Below are positions 184 to 35,415 of a stretch of DNA of 35,415 bases, piece after piece. The DNA is from Utricularia gibba. Its lineage: Eukaryota > Streptophyta > Magnoliopsida > Lamiales > Lentibulariaceae. The stretch spans positions 1-35,415 of the forward strand of contig NEEC01000173.1 of the NCBI GenBank assembly GCA_002189035.1, given 5' to 3'. The first letter of the stretch is position 1, and each line of letters begins with the position of its first letter. The notes beneath the pieces are model-generated. The model did no database searches, was not told the origin of the DNA, and worked only from the letters and a program-made list of their open reading frames with translations. A program made the position numbers and the translations under genes.

Positions 184-1887
184 CTAAAAGAATTTTTTCC
201 AGATGGGATGAGTCTTCCAAAGGCGTTCCTCGACCTCTTCCACCGGCACCCCCTTGGTCTCCGGCAACAGAAACAGGGCGAAGAGGCCCATGACGACGAT
301 CCAGGCCGAGAAGAAGAAGAAGATGTTTGCTTTCATGTGGCACAGCATCGACAGGAAGGCTTGAGCTATCACGAAGGTGAAGATCATGTTGGTGCTGACT
401 GCAATCGCGAATCCCGCCGCTCGAGTCTGAATCGGATAAATTTCCGTCGGAACCAGCCACCCCATCGGCCCCCACGACCAGGCGAAGGACATCACGAATG
501 TGCAGACGAAGAGCACCACTACGGCCGCCAATGCTTTTGGTAAACCCCCGGTTGAACCCAGGTGAGTTGACAGTACGGACCCGACGATGACCTGCATGTA
601 ATAACACGCCAATCTCTGATTCTACATTCTACTTCTGGTCTGGGTGTGATAGTGTAGGATAATATGATGAACGAACCTGAGAGATGAGCATCTGGACGCA
701 TGCTTGGAGGAGGAGATTTCTCCGGCCAACTTTGTCGACGACGAAGATGGAGACGAATGTGGAGCACACGTTGACAGCTCCGATGATAAGTGAAGACGCC
801 AAGGAGGCATCGGATTTGAAACCCAGTGTCTGAAACAGGACTGGAGCGTAGAACATTATCGCATTGATCCCTGTAAACTGCTGGAAGATCTGAATCGAAT
901 TTCCGACGACCAATGCCGGAATCCCGGATTTGGCGAAGACTTTCTTCCACGGATGTGTCGTCTTTTTGGATTCTTCGCATCCGGTGACAATCTGGGCGAA
1001 TTCGAGGTCGACATTTTCAACTCCCCGGATTCTCTTCAACGCCGCCAATCCCTCTTCCACGCGTCCTCTCTGGACGAGGCTCGGAGGAGTCTCGGTTATG
1101 AACAGGGATCCGATGAAGAGAACGACGCCGGGAACCACCGCCAGGCCGAGGGATATCCGCCAACCGTGAGGGTGAACGAAGGAGGTGCCATAGTTTACGA
1201 TGTTGGCTATGAAGATCCCGATGGTGACGAACAGCTGAAACAGAATGTTCACTGCACCTCTGTGTCGCACAGGTGCAACTTCCGACAAGAACAACGGCAC
1301 CGCCTGCGGCCACAACAAACACAAATATTTCTTACACTGGATCTCCATGCATAGCAATCAAACCTAATTCACAAAAACAGATTAACCACGCACCTCATTA
1401 CCACATCCCACGCCGATTCCGAACAGAATCTCCCGAGAATGAGAACCCACTTGACAGGCGCAGAGGCACACAGAATGGCGCCACAGATGAAGAACAGGGA
1501 GGCTGTTAAAATCGTCAGGCGGCGACCAAATACAGAGCAGAGCTTAGAGGCGAAGAAACTGGCAACGAGGGCCGCCAAGTAAAGCGAGGAAGTGAAGAGC
1601 TGCAGCATCTGATCATCATATTTGCAGTAATTATCCTCATGCGCTCGTAGTTTCCTCTCATAGACATGATGGAAGAATTTTTTCAAAAAATCATCCATCC
1701 CCGTCACACCACCTTCACCACAAACCAAAAACATCATAGCAGGAAATCAAAACAAGGAAGCAGATGGGTAAACCCTACCAGAGATCCCGATATCATAACC
1801 AAACATTAGACCACCAAACGCAGCCAGTATCCAACAGGCCCAGACGTACAACGTCATCTTCGACTGGAACTCTTCCGCATTCGCCAT
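184..1887 (-). CDS. Sugar transport protein (STP/MST hexose-H+ symporter), 4 exons, one frame break
   Basis: This is a plasma-membrane monosaccharide/H+ symporter of the major facilitator superfamily. Exons on the minus strand are 1887-1779, 1712-1394, 1303-677 and 591-184, all with GT-AG introns of 66-90 bp. The start encodes MANAEEFQSKMTLYVWACW, followed by the first membrane helix and the family signature GYDIGIS. Exon 2 opens with GGVTGMDDF. Exon 3 starts AVPLFLSEVAP and contains QQFTGINAIMFYAPV and VDKVGRR. Exon 4 has FAWSWGPMGWLVP and PETKG and ends KTHPIWKKFF. About 487 residues would be encoded, close to the family's usual 500. One base is missing in exon 2 near 1429: after LILGR the frame slips, and the next frame continues ILFGIGVG as expected. 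The codon before intron 2 gives Glu where the family has Gln (GNQ/AVPLF). The family is certain. The substrate and paralogue are not assignable. Confidence 0.9.
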
Positions 1888-2217
1888 CGGCTCTCTTCTT
1901 CTGATTCTTGAACTGGGGTTGACGATGAATCCGAGTTTATATACTTAATGACGCAGATGTAGCCGCACTATCTTCCTTGTTTTTGGTAACTTCGTTAGAG
2001 TCTTCCTATTTTTTAGGTCAGTTGGATTGCCTCCTCGAATTCCGGGCACGTGTTAATTTAATTGCAATCCGAATCCATATTCCATGACTGATAATATCCA
2101 CTTCTGTAATCTGTATTTATCCGTAATAAAATCATTTATTTTTTTAATCCCTTGCCAGAAATAAATCTAGAAAGCCAATTTGCGAATATAATATTTGATT
2201 GGAAAATCACAATATCC
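1888..2217. other. Promoter side of the sugar transporter, no gene seen
   Basis: This is the upstream region of the minus-strand STP gene. A minus-strand TATA-like stretch lies near 1938-1944 (plus strand tttatat). Nothing else is recognised before the MITE. Confidence 0.4.
2210..2217. repeat. Left target-site duplication of the MITE
   Basis: CAATATCC is directly repeated at 2772-2779, immediately outside the two ends of the element. The next base on the right is also C, so a 9-bp reading is possible. Confidence 0.75.
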
Positions 2218-2399
2218 CAATGTTTTAAAAATGGGTTAAACCCATTGAACGGTTTTGTTATGGTCTTGGGTCGAACACTTTTTAAAATGAATTGAACTGA
2301 TTTCATTAAATTTTAATTATATTTATTAAAATATTAAAATATAATTATAAAATCATACTTTAATGTATCAAAATATTGAAAATATAGAAAATTAAATAA

Positions 2400-2403
<4 letters not shown>

Positions 2404-2430
<27 letters not shown>
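2404..2430. repeat. (TA)13 microsatellite
   Basis: An uninterrupted alternating TA tract inside the MITE, likely length-polymorphic. Confidence 0.95.
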
Positions 2431-2434
<4 letters not shown>

Positions 2435-2571
2435 GCAATTGATACTATTACATTAAATCATTCTAATTGTTCAATATCTCATTCAAATAATATATAATCT
2501 AACTATAGATAAATATTTTTGACTATCAATATTAATACATATATAAAAATATAATTATTAAGATATAATCA

Positions 2572-2595
2572 ATATATATATATATATATATATAT
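2572..2595. repeat. (AT)12 microsatellite
   Basis: A second alternating AT tract inside the same element. Confidence 0.95.
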
Positions 2596-2771
2596 CAAAT
2601 ATTTATATATCTTATATTTGCTATTCATTATTTCTCTAAATTACACATTAAAAAAAATTTTAAAAAAAGAAAATGAAAGTAAAAAAAATTGAATTAGATC
2701 CAATCCATTAAAATACGGGTTAGTACTAACGGGATGTAACCATGAGTCGAGCCCATTATTTTAAAACTGTG

Positions 2772-2779
2772 CAATATCC
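2772..2779. repeat. Right target-site duplication of the MITE
   Basis: CAATATCC matches 2210-2217. Confidence 0.75.
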
Positions 2780-2780
2780 C

Positions 2781-3390
2781 TTAAAGATGCTTCACAAAAT
2801 TCGATTCTAGGAATAAAATATCAATGTAGATTTTTCTCCTCGAATCTCTCAACCAGCAAATGAGAGGGAGCCGTGGCCGAGGGACGCCGGGGCAGTGTCG
2901 TCGCCGGAGCCGACGATAGAATGCCGTTTTCCTATGAACCTTCCGATCGGATTGGCCATGCTTTAACCAGCAGGAGCCGGAAGAGGAGCGGTAATCAGCG
3001 TGATTTACTTGCAGCACGTCGGGAACGAAGGCCTCAGCCCTCCATTTGCAGTGCCAAAAGTTGGAAAAGGTTTGTGCTTTTGTAATGTGACAGACTGAAT
3101 CTGGTTCCATTTCGAAGGTCTGACCCAAGGAGTCTCTGTAATGGACGCTTCGGTTGATACCCCCAGCCCACAGAATCTCCCACCATTTCACCAGCCGCAG
3201 TGCAAACCAGTCGCTTCCAGAGAAACCAATCTCGAACAAAACGAAGCCTCAGGAAACCCTGATTCACCAATCAGACGCAGCAATGCGAGTGATCCCTGCC
3301 TGCTTACTTGCTTGCTTTGAAGGGAAGAATGCGATGATGATGATGCCTCATCTCCTCTTGCTAAAGATGCAGCCTGCGTCCCCTACAAGC
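2781..3390. other. GC-rich island without a recognisable gene
   Basis: Base composition changes sharply to about half GC after the MITE. Short overlapping open frames exist on both strands (for example + strand 2873-3085 and an ATG at 3142), but none shows a domain I recognise. It could be a leader exon, a decayed gene fragment, or the 5' part of a gene hidden by indels. No function is proposed. Confidence 0.4.
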
Positions 3391-3513
3391 AACCACCACG
3401 TGGTGGTTTTCACATCTTATTATGAAACCTTCACTAAATTCTTCTCCTCGGATGAACAATGTGCCGCGTGTGGTCCAAATTGGCTGCGCCACGTGGACCT
3501 CCTTTTCCACGTG
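3391..3513. promoter_or_regulatory. Cluster of three G-boxes, one inside a perfect 18-bp palindrome
   Basis: CACGTG occurs at 3397-3402, 3490-3495 and 3508-3513. The first lies in the perfect palindrome AACCACCACGTGGTGGTT (3391-3408). G-boxes are bound by plant bZIP and bHLH factors. The cluster is about 1.2 kb upstream of the lipoxygenase start, and a fourth CACGTG is at 4198-4203. Which gene it serves cannot be told from sequence. Confidence 0.6.
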
Positions 3514-4613
3514 ACTCTGACCGGCTTCGGGCAACCCAACCGGAGTCTTCCACTTCGCCACGTCTTACTTATTTCGTAATTATCATGTTCTAAAATTAAA
3601 AGACGTACCCCATTTATATACATTATGATTTAAACACGAGACAATACCGTTGTCATAAGTAGATAAGGGGAAAAAGATCGCACACCCTACATTTCCTATC
3701 CTTCTTTAAATCATTATAATTATTGAAAAAACTAATCATTTCGTGTGTAGGAGATGACTTTGCACACGTCATAATTCAATTTTTTTTTAAAGAAAGTCTT
3801 ACCATAGACGTGGATAAGCATTGATTCGCGCGTACAGCGTCTTTCTTCGACCAATTTCAATTCATTTTTTTTATTTCCCACGCCTGATAAAGAATATTAA
3901 ACCCCCCCCCCCCCCCCCCCAATTTTTATAAAAAAAAATCTAAAATTGAAAATCTTATATGTAGATAACTATCTTTTTATTTTTTAATATTAAATATCTT
4001 ATAATAAATTTAATATATTCGATGAAATACATTCTAAAATCGAAACAATAGGTTATAACCGTTTCTAAAAGGTAACGTGTACAATCAGATCTGTAGAACA
4101 TTATCCATTGGTGCAGCAACGTGGTCCGAATCTCGTACAACGTTGCATAGGTTACTTCGTGTTTCCGTACGACGCACTTTATTCACTAGGAGGCCCCACG
4201 TGGTTAATTATGATTGGTACATATTAAATAAAATGCTCATGGGAAAGTAATTGTATTTAAAATAATTAAAAATGATTTGTATCATTTGGGTCCTATGAGT
4301 TTAACTGAATAAAAAAATATTTTTTATTTTGAGATATTTCGTATTGGTGGGGCCGGAGGTGTCCAAGGTCGAAGCTACAACGATCATGGCATGCATTGAA
4401 TGCGGAGAAATGTCGATGCTTGGAATTCCTTTTTAATGTATTTATGTAATAAAAACCGTATCCTTCTTTTTCTTTTTCTTTTTTTTTAAATGTGAAATAT
4501 TTCAGTTGAATTCAACTAGTCAATGAGATGAGAAGTTGGAAGCCTTGAAATTTCCCTGGTTGCGCGTGGAGAAAGACGGCATGTGTTCGTTCTGGGTATG
4601 CGCTCATGGATTC
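3514..4613. other. AT-rich intergenic region upstream of the lipoxygenase
   Basis: No coding frame is recognised. The region holds a run of 19 C at 3902-3920, several A/T-rich blocks and one isolated G-box (4198-4203). It probably contains distal lipoxygenase promoter sequence. Confidence 0.5.
3902..3920. repeat. Poly(C) run of 19
   Basis: A mononucleotide tract. The true length is uncertain, given how often run length seems wrong elsewhere in this window. Confidence 0.9.
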
Positions 4614-4620
4614 TATATAA
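4614..4620 (+). promoter_or_regulatory. TATA box of the lipoxygenase gene
   Basis: TATATAA lies 91-97 bp upstream of the start codon at 4711, in a sensible position for a leader of about 60 nt. Confidence 0.7.
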
Positions 4621-4710
4621 ACCCCTCTTTTAGTTCCCTTGTTCCAACACCTACATCCAGCAAGTTTAGTTCTTTCTTTTAAACGCCAATAATTTTCAGA
4701 TTTTTTCGTG

Positions 4711-7700
4711 ATGGGCAGCCGCCAAACAAGCAATTGCTTCGTGGATGTGCTTGACAAAGTTATGGGAAGTGTGTGCGGGAAGACGAAGGATGAGCCCGTG
4801 CTTCAGCAGTGCAAGCAGAAGATCCAGGGCAGGGTTGTGTTGACCAAGAAGAATGTGCTGGATGTTACTGATCTCGGCGCCTCTGTTCTTGATCGAGTTC
4901 ATGAGGTTTTTGGGAAAGATATTAGCTTCAGGTTTATCAGTTCAACACAGTGTGACCCTGGTGAGTTTCTTCTTTATTAGGTTTTCTTTTTTTTTTATTT
5001 GTGGGTGTGTGTTATGGAGGAAAAAAATGGAGGGTTTCTTTGTGTTTCTAGATTGGCTGTTCTTGAATCGTAAAGTTTTGCCTGTGGATTTGCAGAGAAT
5101 GGGAATAAAGGGAAGCTGGGAAAAGAAGCACGTTTGGTAGACTGGTTTTCAAAGTTAACTTCACTTGGAGCAGAAGATTCTGCTACCTTCGACTTGGAAA
5201 TTGATTGGGAGGAATGTCTGGGAGTCCCTGGAGCTTTTATCGTTAAAAACCATCATTTTAGCCAGTTTTACCTCAAGACAGTCACTCTGGAAAATGTTCC
5301 TGGGCAAGGCCAAGTCCATTTTGATTGCAACTCCTGGGTATACCCAGCACACCGTTATAGCTACGATCGCATTTTCTTTTCGAATCAGGTACTTTACTGA
5401 AGGGATACAAGTGGTTTATCCTTATCGTTCTTGATTTGAGACCTGAAATTTTGCTTGACTTTCAGACATACTTGCCGTGTGAGACGCCGGAGCCTCTGAG
5501 ATTGTACAGAGAGCAAGAGCTGATCAATCTGCGTGGAAATGGGAAAGGCGCTCTGAAGGAATGGGATAGAGTGTATGACTACGCTTACTACAATGATCTG
5601 GGGATGCCTGAAAGGGGAGAGGATTTTGCTCGTCCAGTTCTCGGAGGAACGGAACAATATCCATATCCACGGAGGGGAAGAACCGGCCGTCGTCCCAACA
5701 AACGGGGTAAGGGAACAAACTAAAAGCTATCACAGATGATTTACATACAGTTTGCTATAGTTTCACTAAGCTGTTGGAGCTGAAATGCAGATCCAAAGAC
5801 AGAGAGCAGGCTGCCTCTTCTGAGCTTAGACATTTATGTACCACGAGATGAGAGGTTTTCAAGTGTCAAGTTTTCAGATTTCATAGCATATGCTCTGAAA
5901 TCCATTGGACAAGTTATCGGGCCAGAGATCAGAGACTTGTTCGACAAGACGAGGAACGAGTTTGACACATTCGAAGACGCTCTCAGGTTATATGATAACA
6001 GCAAGGAGGTGGACCTTCCTGATGCCTGTGCTCTGCTGAAGCGCCGGCAAAGTGTTTCAATGGAACTGATCAGAGAGCTGATTCGCTCAGATGGTGAACG
6101 CTCCTTTAAATTCCCAATGCCTGAAGTAATTCAAGGTAAAGGATCACTTTGTGTTTGTTCAAGTTTTGCATCCAGACTGAAACGCTTGTGTGTTTTACAG
6201 AGGATAAAACAGCTTGGAGAACTGATGAGGAATTCGGAAGAGAAATGCTCGCCGGAGTGAACCCTGTCATCATTCGCCGCCTAGAGGAGTTTCCCCCAAG
6301 GAGCAATCTCGACCGCCAAGTGTATGGTAATCAAGACAGTACCATCACAGAGAAACACATTGAGAAGTTCATGAATGGGCTTACAGTTGATGAGGTAAAG
6401 CTCTTTCCTTTTATCCCTGTCTCTCTTTTGTAGATTTCAGTTCTTTGAATGTTCTTCTTCATTGGACTTGAAAACAGGCTATCAACTGTGGGAAACTCTA
6501 CGTGTTAGATCATCATGATGCACTGATGTTGTACCTCAGAAGAATCAACACAACTAATACAAAGACATATGCTACAAGAACTGTGCTGCTGCTCCAGGAT
6601 GATGGTACTTTGAAGCCACTAGCTATCGAGTTAAGTTTGCCACATGAAGAAGGGGACCAATACGGAGCAATCAGTGAAGTGTTTACTCCATGTGATGAGG
6701 GAGTTGAAGCTGCAGTTTGGCAACTTGCAAAAGCTTATGCTGCTGTGAATGATTCTGGGTACCATCAACTCATCAGCCACTTCGTGAACACCCATGCTGT
6801 CATTGAGCCATTCCTGATCGCAACACATAGGCAACTGAGCGTGGTGCATCCCATACACAAGCTTCTTCATCCCCACTTCCGCGACACCATGTACATAAAT
6901 GCCTTGGCTCGCCAGATTCTCATAAACGCGGGAGGTGTACTGGAGAACACTGTTTTCCCTGGGAAGTACGCGATGGAAATGTCTTCTGCAGTTTATAAAA
7001 GCTGGAACTTCAACGATCAGGCACTTCCGCAAGATCTCATCAAAAGGTCAGTGATTTCACAACTTTGAATTCATTGCACAAAAGCTCACTTGTCTGATAA
7101 TGTATTTGCTGCCAACCGCAGAGGGATGGCTGTTAAAGCTGAAAACAAGCCCCATGGTCTTCAGCTCATGATCGAGGACTACCCATATGCTGTGGATGGA
7201 CTAGAAATATGGTCAGCAATTGAATCATGGGTTAAAGAATATTGCTGCATCTTCTACCCAACAGATGAAAAGGTCGCAGCTGACTCCGAGCTCCAAGCTT
7301 GGTGGAAGGAGGTTCGTGAAGTAGGCCATGGTGATCTCAAGGACCAGACATGGTGGCCAAAAATGCACACCAGAGAGGAGCTAGTGCAGTCATGCACCAT
7401 CATCATATGGATAGCCTCAGCACTCCATGCTGCTGTAAACTTTGGACAATATCCCTATGCAGGATATCTACCTAACAGGCCAACGGTGAGCCGGAGATTC
7501 ATGCCGAAGAAGGGAACTCCTGAGTACGCAGAACTTGAGCAAAATCCTGACGCAGCATTCTTCAAGACAATAACAGCACAGTTTCAGACACTTCTTGGAG
7601 TTTCTTTGATCGAAATCTTGTCAAGGCACTCGGCAGATGAGATCTATTTGGGACAGAGAGACAGTGCTCAATGGACTGACGACAGAAGGTCATTGCAGGC

Positions 7701-7890
7701 ATTTGAGAGGTTTTCATCCGTTCTGGTGGAGATTGAAGAAAGGATCCTGCAAAGGAACAAGGATTCCAGTCTTAAGAACCGTTCTGGGCCAGTGAAGGTG
7801 GATTACATGCTGCTGTTTCCCAACGCCTCTGGGACCAGTCAAGGCGGAGGTTTGATCACCAAAGGAATACCAAACAGCATTTCCATCTGA
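4711..7890 (+). CDS. Linoleate 9S-lipoxygenase (type 1, cytosolic), 7 exons
   Basis: This enzyme adds O2 to linoleic and linolenic acid to make hydroperoxides that feed oxylipin synthesis. Exons are 4711-4960, 5096-5388, 5466-5706, 5791-6135, 6201-6394, 6478-7046 and 7122-7890; together they encode 886 residues with no frame break. A PLAT/LH2 domain covers roughly residues 50-190 and the catalytic domain runs to the end. By alignment with soybean LOX-1, the iron ligands are His542, His547, His733, Asn737 and the C-terminal Ile886 (ending NSISI). Thr599-Val600 at the substrate-pocket position is typical of 9-LOX. Ala585 at the Coffa site predicts S stereochemistry. No plastid transit peptide is visible. 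Two oddities are seen near the iron site: SHFVNTHA where most have SHWLNTHA, and HPIHKLL where most have HPIYKLL. Introns are only 65-135 bp. Which LOX paralogue it is cannot be decided from sequence alone. Confidence 0.96.
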
Positions 7891-8297
7891 GATTTCAATC
7901 AGATCCTTTCCCCCCTTTCGTCTTTTGCTTCTGTGTCATGTCTGTGATTGCAGTTCCAACTCTGTTGTTTGATTAATTCTTTTTGTTGTCATCATATTGC
8001 CTAATGTTTGCGATTGTACCTATGAATTTGATGCTGCAACAACATTTATAAGGATCTTGGTTTCATGTAAAAAGTGCACTCAAACCATTGGCGGTTATAT
8101 CAGTCTTCAAACAACGCATTTCAAGATACGAAAAACTTGACAAATGGCCATAGAAATGGCCAAGACAAAGATGAAGGAAGGCTCTTAGTGTCACCTTGGC
8201 TTTCTCACAAGCATTTCAGTCATCTGTCTGTATACATAAACTGAATATAGAATGACAAATCAACAATCATAACAGGCTTGTCCTCAATCCAAAACAT
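7891..8297. other. Convergent 3' ends of lipoxygenase and DUF868 genes
   Basis: The two genes are transcribed toward each other. This interval holds both 3' untranslated regions and no further coding sequence. Confidence 0.6.
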
Positions 8298-9209
8298 CTA
8301 TTCTAACTTCCAAGCATACAAGATCAAGGAGAACCCCAAACCTGAGAGTTTAGATTCCCCAATGGTCTGAGAGCAGCTCCATGACAATGCCGCCGATGAG
8401 GCATCATCAATCGGTTGACTGTTCCACATCTTGTGTGCAGACAAACTCGTATGAAAAAGAAAAACAGCATTTCCTAAACCAGGTCCAAATAACCAGTTGT
8501 GAACATCCCAGAACACTTCAACAGGGAGCCCATCGATGTTGATAGGGCAGTTGCCACGAAACTTCCAGTGTAGATGATCGATCTGGATGACCGTTTTCGC
8601 ATCTATTCGAATGGAAAGGTTGGGGTGTCGGCTTGTGGTTGTGTCACACTCGATTCTCAGATCATGGTACTCCCCATTTTCACAAAACTGAGCCTTGGTG
8701 GAGTATACCTTTTTACCAGAAATATGTTCCTTCTTCGAAATGAATTGGGTGTCGGGGAGCAAGGAAAGAGCACCTGTTTTCTTGAATGCTTCTCTCCTCA
8801 GATTCCCTACAAGCAAAACCATCTCTTGCTTAGAGACAACTGCTATGTAATAGCCTTCCAGTGGCTCTGGTCCGGATCCGAATTTGGCACCAGAAAGATC
8901 CCAAAAGATTTCAACCTTCGTTGAACTAACTTCCAAGAACTTTGACCCCTTCCGTTTGGAGAACAACGAAGGCTTTACATCAACTCTGAAAATACAACGA
9001 TGCGAGGAATCTTGAATTTCAACACTAACACATTGACCCATCAAGTTTCTACTCCATATAACGCTGATTAAGCAAGATTTGGCAAGCAGTTTGCACCTAA
9101 ACACACAGGTAACTGAATTCTGAGAGGACTTAGTCGCCCCAACAGTTGAACAAGACGTATCAGACACCTGAACCCCGTTCTCACCAAAGCACGAAGGGAA
9201 ATCCCTCAT
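8298..9209 (-). CDS. DUF868 family protein, single exon
   Basis: This is a 303-residue intact frame starting MRDFPSCFGENGVQVSD. It matches the plant DUF868 family: VTCVFRCKLLAKSCLISVIWSRNLMG near the N-terminus, then FSKRKGSKFLEV, VEIFWDLSGAKFGSGPEP with YYIAVV, and near the C-terminus KWKFRGN-like and FWDVHNWLF segments. The gene has no introns, as is common for this family, and the length is normal. The biochemical role is unknown. No signal peptide or membrane segment is evident. The start is the first ATG after an in-frame upstream region without homology. Confidence 0.9.
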   Translation of the reverse strand: MRDFPSCFGENGVQVSDTSCSTVGATKSSQNSVTCVFRCKLLAKSCLISVIWSRNLMGQCVSVEIQDSSHRCIFRVDVKPSLFSKRKGSKFLEVSSTKVEIFWDLSGAKFGSGPEPLEGYYIAVVSKQEMVLLVGNLRREAFKKTGALSLLPDTQFISKKEHISGKKVYSTKAQFCENGEYHDLRIECDTTTSRHPNLSIRIDAKTVIQIDHLHWKFRGNCPINIDGLPVEVFWDVHNWLFGPGLGNAVFLFHTSLSAHKMWNSQPIDDASSAALSWSCSQTIGESKLSGLGFSLILYAWKLE

Positions 9210-10026
9210 CTTTCAACACCCCCAGATCCTCAAAACTTGCAAAAATGAAAAATCTGAAACTAAAACTCCAAGAAACGTGATTTTCCAATCCGAAAATCGA
9301 TTTCCGCCACAACTACCCACTACCCAATCCGAAAATTGAGTCCCGAAGCAACAGCCCGTGAGGTGGGGAGTGGGTGCCGTAAATTTCAGTCAAGCAGAAG
9401 AAGAATATGAAAATAAAAAAATGACAGACAAGTGATTTCTTTGTTTATTACAAAGACCCCGACAAGAGACTGGCGTTTGAATTATCACTATCAGCTTTGC
9501 TTCGTCAACAGAGAAAGAAAAAAGAAAGCAATCGTCACATGCTTTAACTCCAACTCCAAAGCTTCTCCCTGCTACGGTTTCCATCTCGGAGCCCTTTGAT
9601 TCTGTACCATTATTGCCTTTGCTTCTTCTTTTTACTACTCTTCTGTCTCCTCCAAACCAAAAAAAAAAAAAACTCCTCAGTATTTACCCAACCTTTAAGG
9701 TTATTTTTTTAACTTTTTTACCGCGATTTTAGGTTATTCATTTTTTAAAAAATAAATAAAAAGATGTGGATCTGGCCAATTATAGTACTGATAATAATAA
9801 TAAAGTTCGATATAATATGGGATGTGGGCCCGGGTGGGTTGTTGCTGGAGATCATTTATTCCAAATCATGTTGGGAACTGTAAGTGCATTTAACTCCAAT
9901 TATGGAGAATAAAATTTAATGAACAGAAAAACATAACAAAAATGGGTTAATTAATTTTAAATAAAATTGTTAATTAATTTAATATCGGGGGCCCAAATAC
10001 ATGCCCTAGATATATGGGCGGGCAGT
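9210..10026. other. Upstream region of the DUF868 gene, no further gene
   Basis: The first ~450 bp upstream of the DUF868 start is of moderate GC and CT-rich, and probably holds leader and promoter. From about 9660 the DNA is AT-rich up to the 3' end of the next gene at 10027. Confidence 0.5.
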
Positions 10027-11817
10027 TCATTGGATCTTGGATCGGTACCACGTCTCGTCGTACGGCCTCCGGTGGAACTTCAGGTAGGGACGGAACAGTT
10101 CTCGGTTTCCTTCGCCACGGCGGAGCAGCGTCGCCGCCGGCGACTGTAGGAATCCCGGCAGCGGTGTCCACGCCTTGGGGGTCGCCTTTCCAGCGGCCGC
10201 GTGGGGACTCCGGGTCCTGATGACGTCCCTGCCACCTCCGGGAGATGCGAAAGAAAGCGACCTGGGGTTGAGATTCGGACCCGCGGATTTCGCGTCGGTG
10301 AAAGACAAGCACCACGGCTTCAAGGTGTCCAAATGAGGGGACACGGTGACCGAAAACCTTGACGATTTGGACACCGTCGCCGCCCTGAAAGAGGATCCCA
10401 GTCCCGGATCCTCCTCCTCCTCCTGGTAGTCCTCCGGCCACACCAAATGGGTGTCCCTGGAAAGCTCTAGAAACGGCCTCATTCCCTAAGAACATTCGAA
10501 GAAGATTAGAATTCGTTCTGAATCACCAGATTCACCTCAACTCATCATCACCTCACTACCTTCCAAAGGAAAGGAAACAAGGAGGGAGGGTCGATGACAA
10601 AGGCTTTGTGAAGCCGACAAGGGTAGTAATCGGCAACCATTTTTAGTGTCGGTACCAACACCACATTCATGAAAGCTGATCCTGATCTGAAAAAGCCTGC
10701 AAATACTTCATCATCCACTTCAAATTCCTTCTGGTAAATCATCATAATCTTATGCGGTTTCTGCGCATGCTTCACACATATGTTGAAAGAAAGGTTGCTG
10801 TGCAGCCTTACTTTGAGAACTGTCCATCCTACTTTTCTATGCTTACACATTCAAAATGTCCGTCAGACACACACTGACTGGACTAAAAACACCTATGGAT
10901 GAAGAATACAAGAGTAACTAAAGAGTGTGATCTTACTGGCGTCGAATAGGAGGACGAATTGATCGACGTTTTTGGGCATTGTTCGAACCGCCGCTTCAAG
11001 AGTAAACACCACTAGTCTGGTCACCCTGAGACATGATTGTTTTTCCATGATGAATATGTAAGGATTTGAAGTGTATAGCATAATGTTTTGTACTTACTTT
11101 GATTTGGGGTAGTCTTGTTTGATTTTCAATATCTAGCAGGAGAGGTAGCAAAACACAGTTTGAAAATCAACAAAGATAAAGAAAGACAGGGAGGGTAGTG
11201 ACATTACATGAGTTAGTTTACTTACAACTACAGGTCTGGAGTCAGCGTCATGCCCAGCAACATAAGCAACTCCATCAACGACCTCTCCCAAGAATTGATT
11301 CACCATCAAACTGTCTACGAAATTGCACAACACCCCACATTGAAAGTCAACATCTTTAGTTACTTTTAAGACGAAAGCTCCATCTTTCTGTTGAAAGCTT
11401 ATTGAAAAAAAAATAAGATTCCAGAACGCGATGATGATGCAGAAAGTGACAAGGAAAGGGAAATGAGAAGTCTTCCAAAAAGCCCCGAAAGGAGGAGGAA
11501 AAAGAGGTAGCACTTTGAGAGAAAAAAAACAAAGGAACAATGTTTTACCAGCTGAAATGGAGTCTCTCCATTGAAGACAGTTTCTGAGTTGCTTGGCTGC
11601 TTTTTTGACGTTGTATCCTTTCAGCGTGAGAAACCTCTGGATGCAAGCATTGTTGCAAAACTTCTCCTGGTGCAGAGGAATTCAAAGAGTGAGCTCTTAC
11701 AGTGAAAGTGGAAGCAGTAGGAAAACAAACTTGTTTGAGGGTGAGGGGAAATTGGCTCTTGAGAAGGCGGAGAACAGAGAAAACTTTGCTTTCGTCCTGT
11801 GCTTTATCATTTCCCAT
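10027..11817 (-). CDS. SEC14-like CRAL-TRIO domain protein, 7 exons
   Basis: This is a putative phosphatidylinositol/lipid transfer protein of the SEC14 superfamily. I read seven exons on the minus strand: 11817-11731, 11666-11549, 11314-11226, 11132-11098, 11025-10937, 10696-10560 and 10485-10027. They sum to 1014 nt, or 337 residues, with every join in phase. The N-terminus carries [19 protein letters not shown] and [18 protein letters not shown], the CRAL-TRIO N helices. The lipid-binding domain follows with [42 protein letters not shown] and [20 protein letters not shown]. The Ser/Pro-rich tail ends [20 protein letters not shown], a tail I recognise from Arabidopsis members of this subgroup. 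Exon 4 is only 35 nt and intron 1 is 64 bp, so an automatic gene finder may miss both. No break is seen. Confidence 0.9.
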
Positions 11818-12131
11818 CGGATGAAAATGAAGTGGCTCTTGAGAAGGAATCTAGAGACAGACAGAGAGAGCAGTTTCCCTCGAGAAAACAGAGCGTGCCC
11901 GCCTCTCTTCTTCAAGCCATTTCAACTGTCTCTGATACCCTGTTTATACACGTCGGCAGTAGCACTTATTTCATTCGTTTTAAACCTTCTGGCGGGCACC
12001 CCAAGTGGACCTAGAGTTGGACCTGGTTGGCCGAGGATTCCAGTTTTAAATAGGCCCAAAAAAAGGCTCAACGTCAAGATTGACACACTGTGCTCTATTC
12101 TCATAAGTTGGGAGATTCAAGGTGTTGAAAT
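11818..12131. other. Upstream region of the SEC14-like gene
   Basis: Likely promoter and leader of the minus-strand gene. No coding sequence is recognised. Confidence 0.4.
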
Positions 12132-15512: not shown

Positions 15513-15548
15513 GCATTTGAATGAAGTTGGCGTTCTAAGTGAGGCAAC

Positions 15549-23366: not shown

Positions 23367-23424
23367 GACGTCTCTCAGTTGAAGTATCAAGAGTTCGACA
23401 ACTCGTTTTTCTGCAACCCTTCGC

Positions 23425-24253: not shown

Positions 24254-24537
24254 TTTTCAGGTGGTTTGTGTTGAAGGAAAGTGAAAGGAGACATTTTTAT
24301 GGGCGTTACTTTGTGGGGTTTAAGTAATGAAAAATCCCGAGGAGGTTCAACAACTTCGTCCTAACTTTCTGGCTTGGGCTTTTCTTTCCACAAGTTAGGT
24401 TAAGTAGTTCATCCAGAATAACCCAATTCTGCTAATCAACTCAATCTGCTCTTGTCAACTCTTAGATTTCCCATCTATAAAACCCCGTTTCATTTTCATT
24501 TCCCTGTTAAGAAACCTTGTATTTTCCCAACCAGAAA
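24254..24537. promoter_or_regulatory. Shared divergent promoter between two LTPG genes
   Basis: Only 284 bp separate the two start codons. A TATAAAA at 24476-24482 serves the plus-strand gene. A weaker minus-strand ATAAAAA near 24300-24294 could serve the other. The arrangement allows co-regulation. Confidence 0.65.
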
Positions 24538-25448: not shown

Positions 25449-25849
25449 GCATTACCTGGATTTCCTTGTCGTCTTGCTTTTTTTATTATTATTCCGATTT
25501 AAAATTTTCCTTTTTTGTTTTAAATTTATTTCGCATTTTTATTACCTATAATTCAAGTTAATTTTCCCTTTTTACCCTCCCGTAAAGCATCTCATCCCAG
25601 CTTTAATATTAACAAGAAAAAAAAAGGAATATTATTTATTCACGTGGGAAATTGCTAAAATGAAAAATTTTGAATTTAATATATATATATTTTTTTATAA
25701 AATATTATATATCCATCACCAACCGGAGACCAAAAGCCCATAGTTGAAAATCGACAAAATTGGCTGGACTTCCAAGTACCAGCTCTACTTGAAGAGCATC
25801 TTGCGGAAGAACTTTCATTTCCCTTGAAATGCAGAAGCTACAGACATTC
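25449..25849. other. AT-rich spacer between convergent genes
   Basis: This holds the 3' regions of the LTPG gene (+) and the helicase gene (-). No coding sequence is seen. Confidence 0.5.
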
Positions 25850-28800
25850 TTACTCCCATGGTGCATCAGATTTGTTGATATCCTCATGCTTGTTCCCATG
25901 GAAGCCTTGTGGTGATGAATCATCATCATGCGGTGTGGTTTCACTCTCTTCTTCTACACACACAGAGTTGTCATTTGCAGACCTGCAACTCTGTTCATCA
26001 TCTCCAACCCAAGGATCATTATTACGTTGTGTACCCAATGAATCAGAATTGTCATACGGCTGCTGATCAGTGTTTGGTGGCTGTTCTTCAGCACCCTCTT
26101 GAGGTTGGGGAGAATTCCGATCATTGGCGTTATCATCCCAGTTTGAGGGGTGATTGACATGTTCATTAGAAGCCCATTGGCGTTGGGAGGAATACCACTC
26201 ACTCGGATTGTCATCCCAATTTGATGTCTGATTACCCTGTTCTTCAGCACTCCATTGACCTTTGGGAGTATCCCAACCATTTCCATTATCATTCCAGTTT
26301 CCATTGCATGCTCCAGAATCATTATTCCCCTCTTCATAGCCTGAGAAATCTGGACTGCTAGATGGCTTCTCTGGAAGGAAGCAGCCTTTGTATGAGCCGT
26401 TGTCCACACAATACCATAGGAGGTTGTTCCAGTTTGGATCCTATATAAGTAATACATTAGAGAACTGATTGTTGCTCCATATGAAAAAGGCAAAAAAAAA
26501 AAAAAAAAGCATGTTAAACGTGTAACAGATTACGTGTACCTTGCAGAGAATGTGTGGATTCCCTATGATAACAAGCAAAGACTTGGCTCGTGTGATGGCA
26601 ACATTGAACCTCCTTGGATTACTCAGAAATCCTAGATAATGACGCTTATCAAATTCATTATGCTTGATCGTTGAGCGGACTGTGGATATGATGATGACTT
26701 CTTTCTCTTGTCCCTGGAACTGTTCAACACTTCCCACTTTGATGCCAGACATCCCAAGATTCTCTAGAGTGCACCGTATTTTGGATACCTGTTGCCTGTA
26801 GGTGTAATGACCCCAATATCCTCCTCTTTCAGCCCTTTATCATCAATCAGCAATCTGATCATCTCAACTACTTTGCTTGCCTCAATTCTGTTGAACCACG
26901 AGGGATTGGTTCCTTCCCTCTCGTCACACCCTTGGATACCAATGAAAAGCAAAGGGAAATCCTTGTTGGGAAGAATGCCATCCCAAAAGGCTGATGAGAA
27001 TCTTTCATCCTCCTTAGAAGGGATTAGTTTCCCATCATAAAACAAGTCAGAAGGAAGGCGAAGAATTGCTTCATGTGTTCGATAATTTCTAACCAACCTG
27101 GTCATGAAATTCTGGTCTCCATCAGCATATGTCTTGAAGAGTAGCAGCCTTTCCAAATATGAGGTTCCCAGTCCACTGCTTTCAGCACATTGAGAAAATA
27201 CAACTGGACCTAACTGCATAGGATCTCCAGCAAGAACCACAACAGTCTGATCTGTATATAGGTGGGACAGAGGAACCATTGTTTCTGGCTCTGAAGCTTG
27301 CCCAGCCTCATCCAAGAAAATATGAGAAAAGTGTCCACGACTCAGTTCTTGAGCATAAAGATGAGAAGCACTTGCGTAGGTTGTTATGATGATCCTAAAC
27401 TTTTCCAAAACAAAACGTGGAAGACACTTGAAAAGTGAGTCTTCTTCATAGCAGAAATCCATGAGTTTGGGATTCATGTCCTCTAAAGGACGTGTGTACG
27501 CATTAAGTCTAAATATCTCATCATTCTTAAATCCTGGTGACTTCTCACGGATTAGCCTCTCCAAGAGATTATCGGCTGCAGGGTTGGAAGGTGCGCAGAC
27601 TAGAATAGCTTTTCTTCTATTTCTATTATAAACTTGAAAGATTAATTCAACCAGAGTCATCGTCTTGCCAGTACCAGGGGACCGTAAATCACATATGGGA
27701 ACCCTCCCTTGCTAGAAAGGATCATTTGAATGGCAGTCGTTTGTTCCTTGTTCAGGGAACAAGATAATGGAACAAACGTTGGGGTTGTTTCACATTAGTC
27801 CTGCTTGGAGTAGATGGGAAAAGAAACCTCTTACTCAAACTTGAAGCAGCCTCGAGAGCCTGATACAGCCTTCGCATAGCAGTTCGATTGTATGAGAACT
27901 GGACATCATACTGATTTCCATCTCTGTGGTGGATATGAAACTTCGGGTCAAACTTCAAATATATTTCTTCAGCCTCAACTTTGTGAATGTAACCCTGCAC
28001 ATAAAGAAACAAGGAACAATAAAGATCAAAAGCATGTGACAATCTCAATAACTCGCATGAATAAATATTCACGGAACAAAGCATAATTCACACATAACAT
28101 GCATTGGACAGAAGACATGGATGCAAATATATGTAGAAGCTCACAGAGTACTGAGGCCATAAAACACAAATGGGAACAATTTAGTAAAACCAGAGAAGGT
28201 GAATTGTATTTTGACATTCTGTTCATGTAACATGAGAATACATTTCCCAAAAACACTCGAATGAAGAAAAGTAGTAGGATAACCTGAAAAGAATCGTTCC
28301 CAGAAGCACCTTTAGCGAGAATGAAGTCCCCAATAACAAGTGACGGTCGTTTCTCAGCCAAACCAGGAACCTCAAGAGACAGGAACTGGTTCCTTTTACT
28401 TTTCAATGTGACTGAAACCATGTCATAGGCATGCATATCTTCCTGAACACCCATCAAAGAAGAAAGCATTAATAAAGAGATGAAGATGGCAATAATTAGT
28501 GTAAGAGGGATACAAAACATGGTATCTATGCTGCATCAAAGAGGTGCATACCTCCAACTTTATCTCTTCTATAGCTAGTAAAGCTTTAAAGAAAGACTCA
28601 TAGTTTCTAGGTGCTAAACCCTCAATCACCACATCAGGAAGCTGACCGTCTTTTTAACAGACCTGATACAATCTGGAATAGGATATTCAGGTAGTCGGTA
28701 CCTAGGCCCACGAGTCGAAGCCTTTGGAGGACGACGACCCACAAAATATGCATTATCTGCAGGCTTGGCGTTCCAAGTATATTGTTTATTTCTCACCAAT

Positions 28801-29346
28801 CGTTGATATGGTTTTTTTGAGGTCAAAGACTTGGATATGCTATCTTCTGCTAACACAAAAACTATCCTTTCTATAGTTTCGCTTCCAACAGTAAAGTGCA
28901 CAGCTGCTGAATGCATCCCTATTTCTTTCGGTTTGCACGACAACCAGATGGTCAAACACTGATCACATTTCAGAACTCTATCTTCCAAGGAAAATGTCTC
29001 CATAAAATCCTCGATATACTGCATATCAGAATTGGCGTTTGGGGCTCCATTAGAGAAATCGTAAACGAGTTCTCAGGTTTGGCATCATAATACTTACTGA
29101 CCAGAGATCCAATGGCTCACTGGATATGTTTTTTATTGTAACAGTATCAAACTTAGTTTCACCAACAAGTCCTGATTGAGGCTTTCCATCCCTTAATGCA
29201 AAAGGCACAGATATCTCTACAAAATCACTCTCCTCACAAGGGTTATAGTTGCAAACAGATTTGCAGCTGTCAAGATCAATAAACCCAATGTCTGCTTTAT
29301 CACCAATAACCGAATACTCATCATCAGATTTATCAGCTGACTCCAT
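25850..29346 (-). CDS. SDE3: SDE3-like RNA helicase (MOV10 family), 4 exons, six frame breaks
   Basis: The family acts in RNA silencing and antiviral defence with Argonaute proteins. Exons are 29346-28552, 28442-28284, 27994-26540 and 26440-25850. The N-terminus ([18 protein letters not shown]) matches Arabidopsis SDE3, followed by LPSLVIGDF-type and [18 protein letters not shown] segments. Helicase motifs are the Walker A loop (near 27665-27685), [29 protein letters not shown] (motif II), [34 protein letters not shown] and [13 protein letters not shown]. The C-terminal tail is acidic and Trp-rich. Six one-base contractions break the frame, near 29089, 29041, 28650, 27781, 27677 and 26800. 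Allowing for them every exon is a multiple of three, giving about 1001 residues. Identity as SDE3-like is strong; whether the gene is broken or mis-assembled is open. Confidence 0.92.
26063..26296 (-). repeat. Three 78-bp tandem repeats encoding a Trp-rich tail
   Basis: Within exon 4 of the helicase, about residues 854-931, three 26-residue units begin [16 protein letters not shown] and WDDNANDR. The units keep the same length but have diverged in sequence. Trp/Gly pairs in the SDE3 tail act as an Argonaute hook in Arabidopsis; here the first unit has NGWD, and W recurs about every 7-8 residues in units 1 and 2. Confidence 0.85.
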
Positions 29347-31730
29347 AAGGTTATCCTGAAGCTACAAACAGTCATACAAAATCAGTAACATCCAGCAATG
29401 ATTGTTATACATCAGAAACATATGAAAAAGCTCTGATAGAAATCTGATAAATGATCCATATAAAGCAGAGTAAAATTGTCCAGTTAATGGTTAAAAAGCA
29501 CCCAGTTTCATTCTAAAGAGAGATCATCTAACAATGGGGTGATTCTTATGCGCTTCTTCAACCAAAAATTTCAACAATAAAAACAATAGCATGCACCAAA
29601 TACGCAATCGGAAAACGATGTCCCATGAACGGCAATGTAGCGAAACCCACATAAGGCTTCCATCACTCCACGCATTGGAGACGATGAAATAGTTACGAGA
29701 AGGGCTTTCAAAATGAAAACAATTACCAGTCAGCGAACAGAGGAAAAGAAAAATGCGACGTACCCACTCGAGCACAAGAAAGAAGAAGGTTAAACAGAAA
29801 GCGGACCCGGAGCAGCGCCAAGATTCTTGCACGAACCCCTAGGTCCTGGAGAGATTCCGCAGTCAGCTTTGCCGGCAAAAATGAGAATCAGTGAAATGAA
29901 AAAGGGACCATTTCGAAAAATTGAATGAGTGAAATGAAACCAGCCCCATGACGCTTCAGCTTTGGTTCAACCCCCAAAGGTGACCGATGATGATGCTCTT
30001 ACATCTTTCGATAGTAAACAGTACACTTCCCCACGTTTTCCTTTTCCGTTACCAATTAATTACGAGCTAAAACCCAGATCATCTCATCTTAAAATCTCAT
30101 CCATTATCGCATAACACCAGCGCCGCCTTCTTCTTCGTCACTATGCTTGGACTTGATCACCGGAATCATGCACTGCAGACTTCCCTCGTTTAGGTCTCCA
30201 TCAGCCAGATTCAGGGGAGGGGCTGTGCTGTGGACACGGATCGCATCTAGTTTCCCTTATTTGGGCCTAAGAAACTTGACAATACGGGCTACCAGCATCC
30301 GGCCCAGATAGATCCACAAGAGCCCGCATCAGAGGTATCCAGTCCTGGCTGGAAATTTTATGATGTACTTCCCTTTTGGGCCCAGACCAGATCCAAGCCC
30401 ATTTTAAAAAGTTCAATCAAACACTCGGTTCATAGTTACAATTTCAAAATAGGCGGCCTGGCCCAATCCCATTTTTCCTAATACTAAAACATTAAAAAAG
30501 AAAATATTTTATATGGGTAGATTTTACCAAAGTTATTCCAATTTATGGTCAATATTAAACATTTAATTTACAAGTTTCAAAATTATGATATAAAACCTTC
30601 AATTTAATTTTTTAAATAGTTTACACCTTAATTTATTGAAATTATATATTTAACTTTTTATGTTATCAAAATTAATTGGTTTTGATCGTTGTTATAACAA
30701 TATATTATATTAGATATAAACATGAAAACAATATAAATATCTTTAATTTGAATCATACAATACACAAATGTGATATAGCCCTACATAGATATCATTCGAT
30801 TCATCAAATTTCAACAATTTGAGGGATTTAAATTTTTTATATTAAAGTAAATTTGAGATATTTTTCTTGCAATTTTATCTATTTTATATTAAAAAGATAT
30901 TTGTAAGATTATTACATTTTCAAATGTTATGTCCAATTTTACAAACCACAAGTAGCAGGCCCAAGGCAGCGGAGGTGTGGACCCCGCAGCCAGCAGACTC
31001 GAAAGCGACGCTTCATTTGTTTCATGACAAAATTTCAACGGACACGACATAATAAAACTCCACCCCCTCATTTATTGTTATTCCCCCCCGTGACCAACCC
31101 CGCAGCGGTCGCCATTTTTTCGCCATGTCGTTTTCTTCTTCTCCCACTCAATAATGCTGATTCTTATGCAAATGCTGCTTCACACAACAATAGGTAGCAC
31201 CGGCGTCTTGATGCCTTTGAGAGTAGGAGAGGAACAGGTGGGAATGACAAGGACAAAACTGAGGCTGATGCAGACGGAAGCAGATGAACAAGAATACAAT
31301 AAGCACGACACTCCATCTCGAAGCGGGCCATGCAGGAATGATGCCAGGGGCAGGCTGAAGAAGACCCACGTTCCCCGTGAACTAGAAATGATATCTTCCT
31401 GGTCGAGATTTGACGGCATTATCATGACATGGTGGTTCATTGGGTTGACACGGAGGGGGGGACTGCATGTAGAATGGTTTTGAGAGGGCTCGTTAGCAAG
31501 TGGATTTGGTGTATTTTCTTCTTTTTTGGGAGGGGGAGGGATAGCACAGTTTCTAAGATGGTGAAAATGATCACGTGGCTCGCTAAGAGATGTTAATGTG
31601 GATAAGCAATTAGTGGGTATCAAGACAGCCATCCAAAGGTACGAGAATCCAACTCCCCTCTTCTTAAATTCTGACTGCATGTTCTGTCTCTCTTTGCTCT
31701 GCTCTGATAGCTTCTGAGGGGAAGGGGAAA
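29347..31730. other. 2.4 kb intergenic region between helicase and protease genes
   Basis: The first 500-700 bp is the leader and promoter of the helicase gene, possibly with a 5' UTR intron. From 30490 to 30950 the DNA is AT-rich. From 30950 to 31700 it is GC-richer with overlapping open frames on both strands (31154-31483 +, 31180-31749 -), but no known domain or peptide motif was recognised. The last part is the protease promoter. Confidence 0.45.
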
Positions 31731-33333
31731 ATGGGTCTCTGGGTTTCAATGGCTTCTCTGCTCCTCCTGTTTGCGTTTACCAGCTGCATTAGTTCTGTTT
31801 CTTGTGTACTCAGGAATGAGCTTCTTCCTCTCTCATTGAAGAAGCTAACCCGGACAAAGCCAGAGTATGCTGTAAACTGCAGAGTCCCACAGACAACAAG
31901 TGAGTTTTCAAACACCAAATTGCATTCCACTTGTTTCTTTTGGGTTGCTTTTATGGTAGTTTTAAGGTTAGGGAAAGTTTCGTTTCTTGGGTTTCCTACT
32001 TTTGGTGCCCTGATGTTATCTGCTTCTAAAGAGAGTTGTCAGCATCAACAGGAAATGAAAACGGAGCTACCATTTTAGAAATGAAGCATCATGATTCCTG
32101 CTCAGGCCTTGCACAAGACTGGAACAACAAGCCTCAAAATCGTCTCTTTGCTGATGTTATCAGATTCAAGTCCATGCAATACCGCATTGAAAATATGGGT
32201 TCCACGAAAAAGGAATCCATGTCTCTACAAGCAGAGCTTCCACTGAACTCAGGAATCAAACTCCAGACACTTAACTACATAGTCACTGTTACATTAGGGG
32301 GCGAAACTTGACAGTTATAGTTGACACAGGAAGTGATCTGAGTTGGGTTCAGTGTCAGCCTTGTCAGCAATGCTACACTCAAGCAGATCCAGTGTTCAAC
32401 CCCTTGCTATCCCCTTCATATCGAAACGTTCAATGCAGCTCACAAGCCTGTCAGAATTTACAGTACGCAATTGGACACTCAGGGTTATGTGGTAACGATG
32501 AACCTAAATGTAAATATGCAGTTACATACGGGGACGGATCATCAACTGCAGGGAATCTGGGGAAGGATAAGCTACTTCTAGGAGTGGTTTCTATTGAGAA
32601 CTTCATATTTGGATGCGGGTATTACAACAAAGGTCTTTTTGGTGCTGCTTCTGGTTTACTGGGACTGGGAAGAAGCCAACTTTCACTCATTTCTCAAACT
32701 TCCAATTTGTTTGATGGTGTTTTCTCCTACTGCTTACCTGAGTCAGATACCACTCTCTCGGGTTCATTAGTTCTTGGAAGCAGTACCTCGGTTTTCAGAA
32801 ACACAACTCCGGTTTCTTACACTAACTTAGTGGTAGATCCTCAACTCAACAGCTTCTACCTTCTGAATATGACAGGAGCCAGCGTTGGAGGTGTTGAATT
32901 GCAATCTCCATCTTTTGGGAAGACAGGGATTCTTATTGATTCGGGGACAGTCATCACTAGACTCCCTCCATCTATCTACAGAGCAGTTAAAGACGAGTTC
33001 TTGGTGCAGTTTGCAGGGTACCCTCCCGCCCCAGGATTCTCGATCTTGGACACATGCTTCAACCTCACAGGATACCAGAAAGTCAATGTCCCTACAATGA
33101 AGATGAGGTTCCAGGGTGGAGCAGAGATGAGTGTCGATGTTTCAGGAATGCTGTATTTCGTGAGAAGGGATTCATCACAAGTGTGCTTAGCTCTGGCAAG
33201 CCTTGGTTACGAGGATGAGAACGGGATCATTGGGAACTATCAGCAGAGAAACACAAGAGTTGTGTATGATACAAAGAATTTAGTGGTGGGATTTGCTCGA
33301 GAGATGTGCAGCTTAAGACCACGAAAGATGTAA
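31731..33333 (+). CDS. Aspartyl protease family protein (A1, nepenthesin/CND41-like), 2 exons, one frame break
   Basis: Exons are 31731-31899 and 32043-33333. A signal peptide starts MGLWVSMASLLLLFAF. A propeptide region follows, then LNYIVTVTLGG and the first catalytic motif VDTGSDLSWVQCQPC (Asp codon 32322-32324). The plant-specific Cys-rich insert, YGDGSSTAGNLG, FGCGYYNKGLFG and SGLLGLGR follow, then the second catalytic motif LIDSGTVITRLPPSIY (Asp codon 32938-32940) and the end GIIGNYQQRN. One base is missing in the G-run 32297-32301, just before the first catalytic motif; the written frame stops there. With it the total is 1461 nt (486 residues). Likely secreted or vacuolar; the substrate is unknown. 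Confidence 0.92.
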
Positions 33334-35241
33334 TTTTTACACAAAACAGCATGTATATATATATATAATTCACTACATGACACGAGACTGCTTCATGGAT
33401 GGCAACACACGCAAGAGAAAAGCAAAAGTGTGCAGGTAGAATAAGAACAAACCTTCCATGTGCCATGTGCCATGTGTTATCCCCACAAAACGTAATGAAA
33501 AAAAGAAAGCAGCCAGTTCTGCTGGGAAACAGTAATCACATGTGAAGTTTTTTGAAAAGGCAGCAAACAGATAAAGAATCCACAGTTAAACAACGGCACA
33601 CTATCCATCTCAGGAATGGGTGCAATCTCAAATGGGAATATAGCAAAGCAATAGAACAGGCATTCAAGTTTGTCTTGTACCCGCTTAGTCTCCTCAAGAG
33701 AACAATCTACATGAAAAGCAGAGCAGCATCGCCGATGGTTTACCTTTGCAAGTTCTATCATCATCCACACAGTGCCATAATTTCCTTCCATTCACAGCAC
33801 CCGTCTCCAAATCTAACTAGATTCATTCTCTCCCCCCTGCAAGCCCAAAAACATCCAAACCCCCCGCCCAAACACAGTTTGTTAGATTAAAATCCGCACA
33901 GACAAACCCTCTTGAACGGGCCTGAATTCCTCTGTGGGAAATGGGTGATGGATTCACTATTCCAAAGCCCCACCACGTACCTGTACTGCGGGACCCACCC
34001 ATCCCTTCCCCCTCCGTATTCAATCCTACGGCCACTAGCGAACCTGAATCGCATGCGGTCAGGATGTGCCAGTCCCAGTCCCAGTTCTTCAAATTAAATA
34101 ATAATAACGCTAAAATGAAATTTAGTTTAATTTAATATGATATTTTAATTCATCCAAGTTAATCATATATAATATTAATATTCAAAAAAATAAATATTTA
34201 AAAAACATGAGTATATTCTAGAACTAACGTTATTTAAATAAAGACTATTTAACACATATTTTACACAAAATACTATATTTAAATATACATATAATATTAT
34301 CAAATATCCATAATATATAATTAAATGAAATAGTATTTATTACAAAAATCTATATAAATATATGTGTTTGTCTTTGACCATAAATCAAAGTTTAAATAAC
34401 AAAGAATATCTAATATATAGCATTAAATATCATTACTAATTCAATATGTGACTAATTTACAAGAAATATCATTTCCAGTCAATTTTAAATAAAAAAATAA
34501 TCAATTTGATAATCTTATTTATTATACACTTACAGGATTACCAAAATATAGTATTAAATACTATTGCTAATTAAATATGTGATTAATGTAACATAAAGCA
34601 CCCGTTCATATGTACCCATTGAGAATGAAGACGGGCATTTATTTTAAAATTTGGAAAAAAAAAAGTTGCATGAATTCAAAAAGCGCAGCAATAAATGGTG
34701 ACAGCTCATTCATTAGGGTTTAACCCGGCAAAAACATTTAGGGATGGGAAATAATTTCCTAATTATTGTGGCCAACAGATTAACCTAACCGTTAGTTCAT
34801 TCCAATTTAGTGGGCATCCATTATTCCACTTTGAACAATTAAATACTCCAAATACCCCCCTCATTAACCGACACGTGTCATAATTACCCCTTAATCACCT
34901 CCAACAGAAACCCGGCCCGGCCTTCTCTTAAAATGGATCCCTTAATCACATACATTATGGAACCCGATTGGAAATATAAAAGAAATTAATTAAAAAAACA
35001 GTTAATATCTGATTGGACAGGAAGCCACGGCATTTTTTATGTGGTAGGCTGAAGGGGAGGGTGAAATAAATAAATAGACCAAAAATTGCAGCGGAGAATT
35101 AAAGGCGTGAGCGGAGGAAGTTGGCGATCCTACGGTAACAACAATTAATTCCGCCAAATAATAATACGAACATTGAACATTTAAGGCGTCTTTGTAAGAG
35201 AGGAGGAAGGGGGAAGGAGGGAATCGTGTTGTGAGAATACA
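33334..35241. other. 1.9 kb intergenic region
   Basis: The 3' flank of the protease gene, with a short TA microsatellite at 33353-33366, then moderately GC DNA to about 34090 with no recognised gene, then very AT-rich DNA to about 34600 with a direct repeat pair. The final ~350 bp is the promoter of the AP2 gene. A telo-box-like TTAGGGTTT occurs near 34715. Confidence 0.45.
34416..34590. repeat. Degenerate 44-bp direct repeat, spacing 131 bp
   Basis: 34416-34459 and 34547-34590 share TATAG-ATTAAATA, ATT-CTAATT and AATATGTGA-TAAT blocks with about eight mismatches. Possibly remains of a tandem array or a small transposon. Confidence 0.65.
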
Positions 35242-35248
35242 TATATAG
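35242..35248 (+). promoter_or_regulatory. TATA box of the right-edge gene
   Basis: TATATAG, about 70 bp upstream of the ATG at 35314. Confidence 0.6.
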
Positions 35249-35313
35249 GGCCGGCCAGTCGCGACAACCAACATTCAGCCCTGCCCATCACTCAAACTGG
35301 ACCCGAAACCAGC

Positions 35314-35415
35314 ATGGCCAAGCGCGCCACCGCTGTCGCCACCCACCGGAGGAGCCAATTCTGAGGAGCAAGCGGAGCAGGAAGAGCATACCCAGGGAGT
35401 CTCCTCAACAGCGGA
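35314..35415 (+). CDS. N-terminus of an AP2-type transcription factor (WRI/ADAP-like), partial
   Basis: The ATG at 35314 opens MAKRATAVAT, then the frame shifts by one base at the CCC run 35342-35344. The next frame reads PPEEPILRSKRSRKSIPRE and SPQQR to the window end. That basic segment closely resembles the stretch just before the first AP2 domain in WRINKLED-like factors (SKRKRKSPPRNAPLQR in Arabidopsis ADAP). These factors regulate fatty-acid synthesis or ABA responses. The AP2 domain itself lies beyond the edge, so the call rests on about 20 residues. Without the shift the frame ends after 16 codons. Confidence 0.55.

Follow-up and report, generated by a model that had tools for sequence, protein, structure and literature searches.

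Single-base frame breaks in a small Utricularia gibba contig are very likely consensus errors, and the contig probably represents an allele with a young copia insertion

Frame breaks and the counterpart contig

The window analysed here is an entire contig (NEEC01000173.1, contig C234; 35,415 bases) of the Utricularia gibba assembly GCA_002189035.1, which comprises 100.09 Mb in 516 contigs. A first-pass annotation made from the sequence alone listed sixteen one-base losses that break the reading frames of its genes and attributed them to residual long-read consensus error. On comparison with a second contig of the assembly, C505, the breaks that are private to the window are very likely consensus errors rather than gene loss, and the genes of the plant are probably intact. 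The attribution is upheld by an absence of substitutions in approximately 30 kb, by an excess of events in G/C runs, and by the sequence of C505, which is longer at most of the reported sites. The annotation had proposed comparison with another assembly of the species. Contig C505 of the same assembly was used instead; of the 14 reported sites that lie outside a mobile element, it has one base more at 11.

A 301-base probe from the window has a second match on the minus strand of C505 (3.45 Mb), and the 39 kb stretch of C505 found with this probe was aligned directly to the window. Window positions 1-16199 and 21549-35415 match C505 end to end. In these approximately 30 kb, which exclude the mobile element, there are no substitutions and 50 insertions or deletions (indels). 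The window is shorter at 28 of these sites and longer at 22. Under default alignment scoring there is one mismatch, in a row that extends beyond the edge of the insertion. At 6349/6353 and at 33970/33973, a gain and a loss are no more than four bases apart and could alternatively be expressed as a small number of substitutions. If half of all events were substitutions, the chance of finding none in fifty would be approximately 9e-16.

Between truly diverged alleles or duplicates, substitutions usually outnumber indels. The presence of indels without substitutions argues that the difference between the two contigs is not biological decay. Pseudogene decay, in which the window would be a dying duplicate or haplotype with true single-base losses, accounts for the many broken genes, among them a helicase gene with six breaks by the first-pass count (four private to the window and two shared with C505). 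Decay would also have added substitutions and stops, and the same type of event is found in unrelated genes, in noncoding DNA and in the mobile element. This explanation was dropped on the lack of substitutions, and it is extremely unlikely.

Positions of the sixteen breaks

Eleven of the sixteen reported breaks correspond to a one-base loss relative to C505. When 14 sites are placed at random, a mean of 0.40 match within 15 bp, with a maximum of 5 among 20,000 draws. Two further breaks lie in the mobile element and are private to the window's copy. The remaining three are the same in both contigs. The first-pass observation is partly confirmed, and in substance it is right.

By gene, the eleven confirmed sites are as follows. 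The sugar transporter (minus strand) is broken at 1429, where the stop-free stretches of the window are 187-621, 632-1357 and 1372-1746. The glycine-rich protein gene (plus strand) is one base short in G runs at 15623 (reported as 15638), at 15891 and, past the insertion, at 21610. The second LTP-type gene (plus strand) is one base short in a C run at 24595 (reported as 24608). The helicase gene, with MOV10 and AAA_11/AAA_12 domains, is on the minus strand and is shorter than in C505 at 26800, 27780 (a G run), 28654 (reported as 28650) and 29088. The TAXi-type aspartyl protease (plus strand) is shorter in a G run at 32296. The truncated gene at the contig end (plus strand) is shorter in a C run at 35341.

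C505 reads through better than the window at 10 of these 11 sites. At seven of them (15891, 21610, 26800, 27780, 28654, 29088 and 32296) this is determined by an open-frame test, and at the other three (15623, 24595 and 35341) by translation. For example, 434 codons are open in C505 and 0 in the window at 32296, and 423 and 83 codons, respectively, are open at 26800. At 1429, the stop-free stretches are long in both contigs, and their length gives no decision on which contig is right.

Run bias and direction of the changes

The changes are concentrated in G/C homopolymer runs, with several events still outside runs. Among G/C runs of 4-7 bases in C505, 13 of 141 are shortened in the window. 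Among A/T runs of 4-9 bases, 3 of 455 are shortened (Fisher p = 1.3e-6). Among G/C runs of five, 6 of 36 are shortened. The table behind these counts covers runs of up to 12 bases, and the long C runs and one 15-base A run are therefore outside the 141 and 455. C runs of 17-19 bases are present in noncoding DNA at window positions 3902-3920 and 14590-14606, and their length is unequal in the two contigs.

An indel-only, run-associated spectrum would also be produced by true slippage in a repair-defective lineage, in which the allele with the insertion lost run bases without gaining substitutions. Slippage is expected mostly in the longest runs. Here most losses fall in G/C runs of 4 to 6, and shortening is rare in A/T runs of 4 to 9. 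Similar indels are also present in unrelated small contigs. True slippage would be expected in other run classes and was dropped; its probability is close to nil.

The first-pass annotation described the breaks as losses throughout, with no insertion. This holds for the net coding frame. It does not hold for the contig as a whole, given the 22 of 50 sites at which the window is longer. Within recognised genes, with exons judged by eye and a frame-neutral pair in the lipoxygenase gene excluded, the window is shorter at 11 sites and longer at one (22997, in the SMP gene; p = 0.006). Losses are denser in the right part of the window (20 in 13.9 kb) than in the remainder (8 in 16.2 kb). This excess may fit a fall in read depth.

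Breaks shared by both contigs

At 15833, 27677 and 29041, the text of C505 is identical to that of the window, and the C505 translation also shifts frame. The first of these sites is in a G run of the glycine-rich protein gene (plus strand). The other two are in the helicase gene (minus strand), with 27677 beside a PGTGKT motif. In a later stop-free check, the C505 row for 29041 is void, as its anchor spans the difference at 29088. These shared breaks are likely to be errors as well, rather than true frameshifts, because C505 is not free of private breaks either (22997).

The alternative is that the shared breaks are real and that the glycine-rich and MOV10-like helicase genes are true pseudogenes. 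In favour of this reading, both contigs carry the same text here, and two probes (at 14000 and 27560) revealed no third copy of the locus. Domain evidence covers one of the three sites. There is no Pfam match on either side of 29041, and the text at 15833 is of low complexity, with its frame judged by eye from the translation. At the site with domain evidence, 27677, similarity to UPF1 helicases begins right on the far side of the break. All three breaks are within or beside G/C runs of four, C505 is broken elsewhere, and large contigs hold other frame-split genes. True pseudogenes at these sites are unlikely.

Other small contigs and evidence that weighs against consensus error

Six small contigs were probed: C236, C230, C233 and C120 (from 20 with the first kilobase read), C245, and the window. 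For five of the six, the window among them, a megabase contig contains a near-identical sequence. For C245, C236, C230 and C120, the match is nearly perfect along the 601 or 701 bases probed; for C120 the comparison is of 601 bases only. Over 14,952 columns, C236 and C505 differ by 27 indels and no substitutions, and all 10 informative sites are open in the large contig. This comparison covers the 14,924 bases, of 20,000 taken from C236, that align to the C505 stretch. C245 and C244 differ by 1 substitution and 7 indels over 19,763 columns, and the single informative site favours the large contig. Alignments of fewer than 300 columns were omitted.

Several observations weigh against reading the window's breaks as consensus errors. 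C505 is from the same assembly, probably from the same sequencing platform, and its independence as a witness is therefore limited. Three of the sixteen breaks are also present in C505, which has a further one at 22997. When all sites are counted, the direction of change (28 shorter, 22 longer) shows no clear loss bias. One of the five other copies of the mobile element that were compared has three one-base losses of its own, though it is located in a large contig. The pair formed by C230 and C413 differs by 131 substitutions and 123 indels over 19,507 columns, and its frame test is mixed (17 to 13). For the window the open-frame test is also mixed, with 9 of 16 informative sites favouring C505 (seven of them reported breaks) and 7 favouring the window.

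The seven sites that favour the window are 22997 and six sites outside recognised genes. Four of the six (31372 to 31614) are in a single stop-free stretch of 198 codons on the minus strand. The open-frame test is mixed for the window and for C230 because chance open frames are also scored. The verdict on the window was therefore based on recognised genes. The C230 and C413 pair, on C413:4224001-4244000, may represent a diverged haplotype or a far worse consensus. Its substitutions indicate that not all small contigs are error-only copies.

Genes are also broken in large contigs. A DUF868 gene on C412 appears as two adjacent matches in different frames, and two UDP-glycosyltransferase genes, on C4 and C255, are likewise split between frames. 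These could be errors or real pseudogenes. The remaining small contig, C233, consists of a tandem satellite, which has a period of approximately 312 bases and is also present at C260:3-8596 and C297:32-7101. Of 1,327 candidates for C233, 2 were scored, and these gave it no place in a large contig.

Five of 29 contigs have lengths that are exact multiples of 500, where approximately 0.06 would be expected. These are C505 (3,452,500), C2 (6,192,500), C340 (27,500), C360 (20,000) and C280 (5,000). The Quiver consensus method uses windows of 500 bases. The lengths possibly reflect fixed-size consensus windows that were lost at contig ends.

Relationship of the window to the large contig

The window is probably a separate contig because it represents an allele with a 5,349-bp copia insertion, with C505 representing the empty site. 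It would then be redundant, an alternate copy of 30 kb already represented in C505. Reads from the insertion allele would have formed a side path that was assembled apart from the main contig. The consensus of such a small contig would be thinly supported, with few long reads and little polishing. Single bases would have been dropped from it, often in G/C runs, and the frames broken as a result.

The window could instead be the product of a very recent segmental duplication and lie elsewhere on the chromosomes, and identity alone does not distinguish a fresh duplicate from an allele. In the alignment the window is contained within the C505 interval at both ends and has no foreign flank. The nearly perfect matches of the four other small contigs to megabase contigs also count against a duplication. 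A duplication at another place is very unlikely.

The copia element and its family

The mobile element is a Ty1-copia-type long terminal repeat (LTR) retrotransposon of 5,349 bp at 16200-21548, on the minus strand. It interrupts the glycine-rich protein gene and is absent from C505. Its two LTRs are identical and 392 bp in length. In the sense of the element, the 3' LTR is at 16200-16591 and the 5' LTR is at 21157-21548. A 5-bp target site duplication is present as a left copy at 16195-16199 and a right copy at 21549-21553. C505 has the empty site, in which this 5-bp target is present once. In Pfam searches, copia gag and rve are in the upstream open stretch of the minus strand and RVT_2 is in the downstream stretch.

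The breaks at 18190 and 19149 are within this element and are the only one-base losses specific to the window when it is compared with five other genomic copies. The window copy contains stop-free stretches of 681, 374 and 610 codons. The other copies contain a stretch of 1,593 codons in four of five cases and of 842 codons in the fifth. The five fully compared copies differ from the window copy by 1 to 7 substitutions.

At least ten near-identical LTR pairs at the spacing of a full element are present in the assembly: in the window, C4, C2, C508, C304, C213, C3, C244 (two) and C245, among others that this lower bound may leave uncounted. Six elements were read through. A separate 5-bp target duplication flanks the copy at C245:16411-21750, for which the empty site is near C244:2425539. 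The small differences among the copies mark a very recent burst. The family may well be actively transposing, in a genome whose retrotransposons are regarded as nearly silent, because the LTRs are identical, an empty site is present, the flanks are free of substitutions, C245 and C244 provide a second case, and there are at least ten LTR pairs. The young insertion polymorphism is the remaining biological interest of the window. The titles and abstract openings of the literature searched contain no mention of it, and no claim is made that it is unpublished.

Comparison with known systems

The changes in the window are similar to residual homopolymer-length errors of long reads. They are single-base indels, associated with runs and without substitutions, that break unrelated genes. 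Homopolymer-length consensus errors can pseudogenise genes (PMC12007338). The window differs from the typical case in that short G/C runs are affected far more than A/T runs, and in that the errors are revealed by a second contig, not by short reads.

The window also resembles a haplotig, as a small contig that is contained in a large one and differs from it by a structural variant. Secondary haplotype contigs and indels made by assembly are described in a further paper (PMC5632298). Unlike haplotigs, the window and C505 have no phasing substitutions, and a single retrotransposon insertion is their only evident biological difference. The element itself has the ordinary structure of a plant Ty1-copia retrotransposon, with TG...CA LTRs, a 5-bp target duplication and the order gag, integrase, reverse transcriptase. 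It stands out for its youth and for its presence in one of two contigs and absence from the other.

For users of the assembly, small contigs may be redundant, and frame breaks in them should not be taken for gene loss; this applies less to breaks in large contigs. Comparing a contained contig with its large counterpart, and counting substitutions against indels, is a cheap internal test for error. The same comparison reveals very young insertions of mobile elements that would otherwise be discarded with duplicate contigs.

Genes of the window and other features

The genes identified by profile or similarity matches are a sugar transporter, a lipoxygenase, a DUF868 gene, a CRAL/TRIO (SEC14-like) gene, a DUF3339 gene, an SMP gene and two LTP-type genes. 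Further genes are the helicase, with MOV10, AAA_11/AAA_12 and UPF1-like domains, and the TAXi-type aspartyl protease. Translation is the only basis for two others, the glycine-rich protein gene and the truncated right-end gene. In Pfam, 7 of the 26 submitted stretches are without any match.

Two of the genes that the first-pass annotation listed as free of breaks differ between the contigs. In the lipoxygenase gene the frame is intact, as stated. A previously unreported, frame-neutral pair of one loss and one gain relative to C505 (6349-6353, plus strand) alters its residues, which are E-K-H in the window and R-E-H in the letters of C505. Solved lipoxygenases have K-E-H (1hu9), A-E-H (9lby), K-S-H (8i6y) and K-E-Q (2iuk) at the same place. 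On this comparison, it is probably the window, rather than C505, that is altered here. In the SMP gene (22997, minus strand), the window is open, as stated, and it is C505 that lacks a base and loses the frame. Therefore, neither contig is correct throughout.

The truncated gene at the right end occupies window positions 35314-35415. The C505 version extends to a YRGVTR-type end, which may be AP2-like, resembling exon 1 of an AP2-type transcription factor.

Two dispersed repeats are also present. An AT-rich repeat of approximately 550 bases at 2216-2773 has dozens of matches in the genome, mostly at 71-87% identity. A second, at 12322-12634, has matches of 72-78% identity on several contigs.

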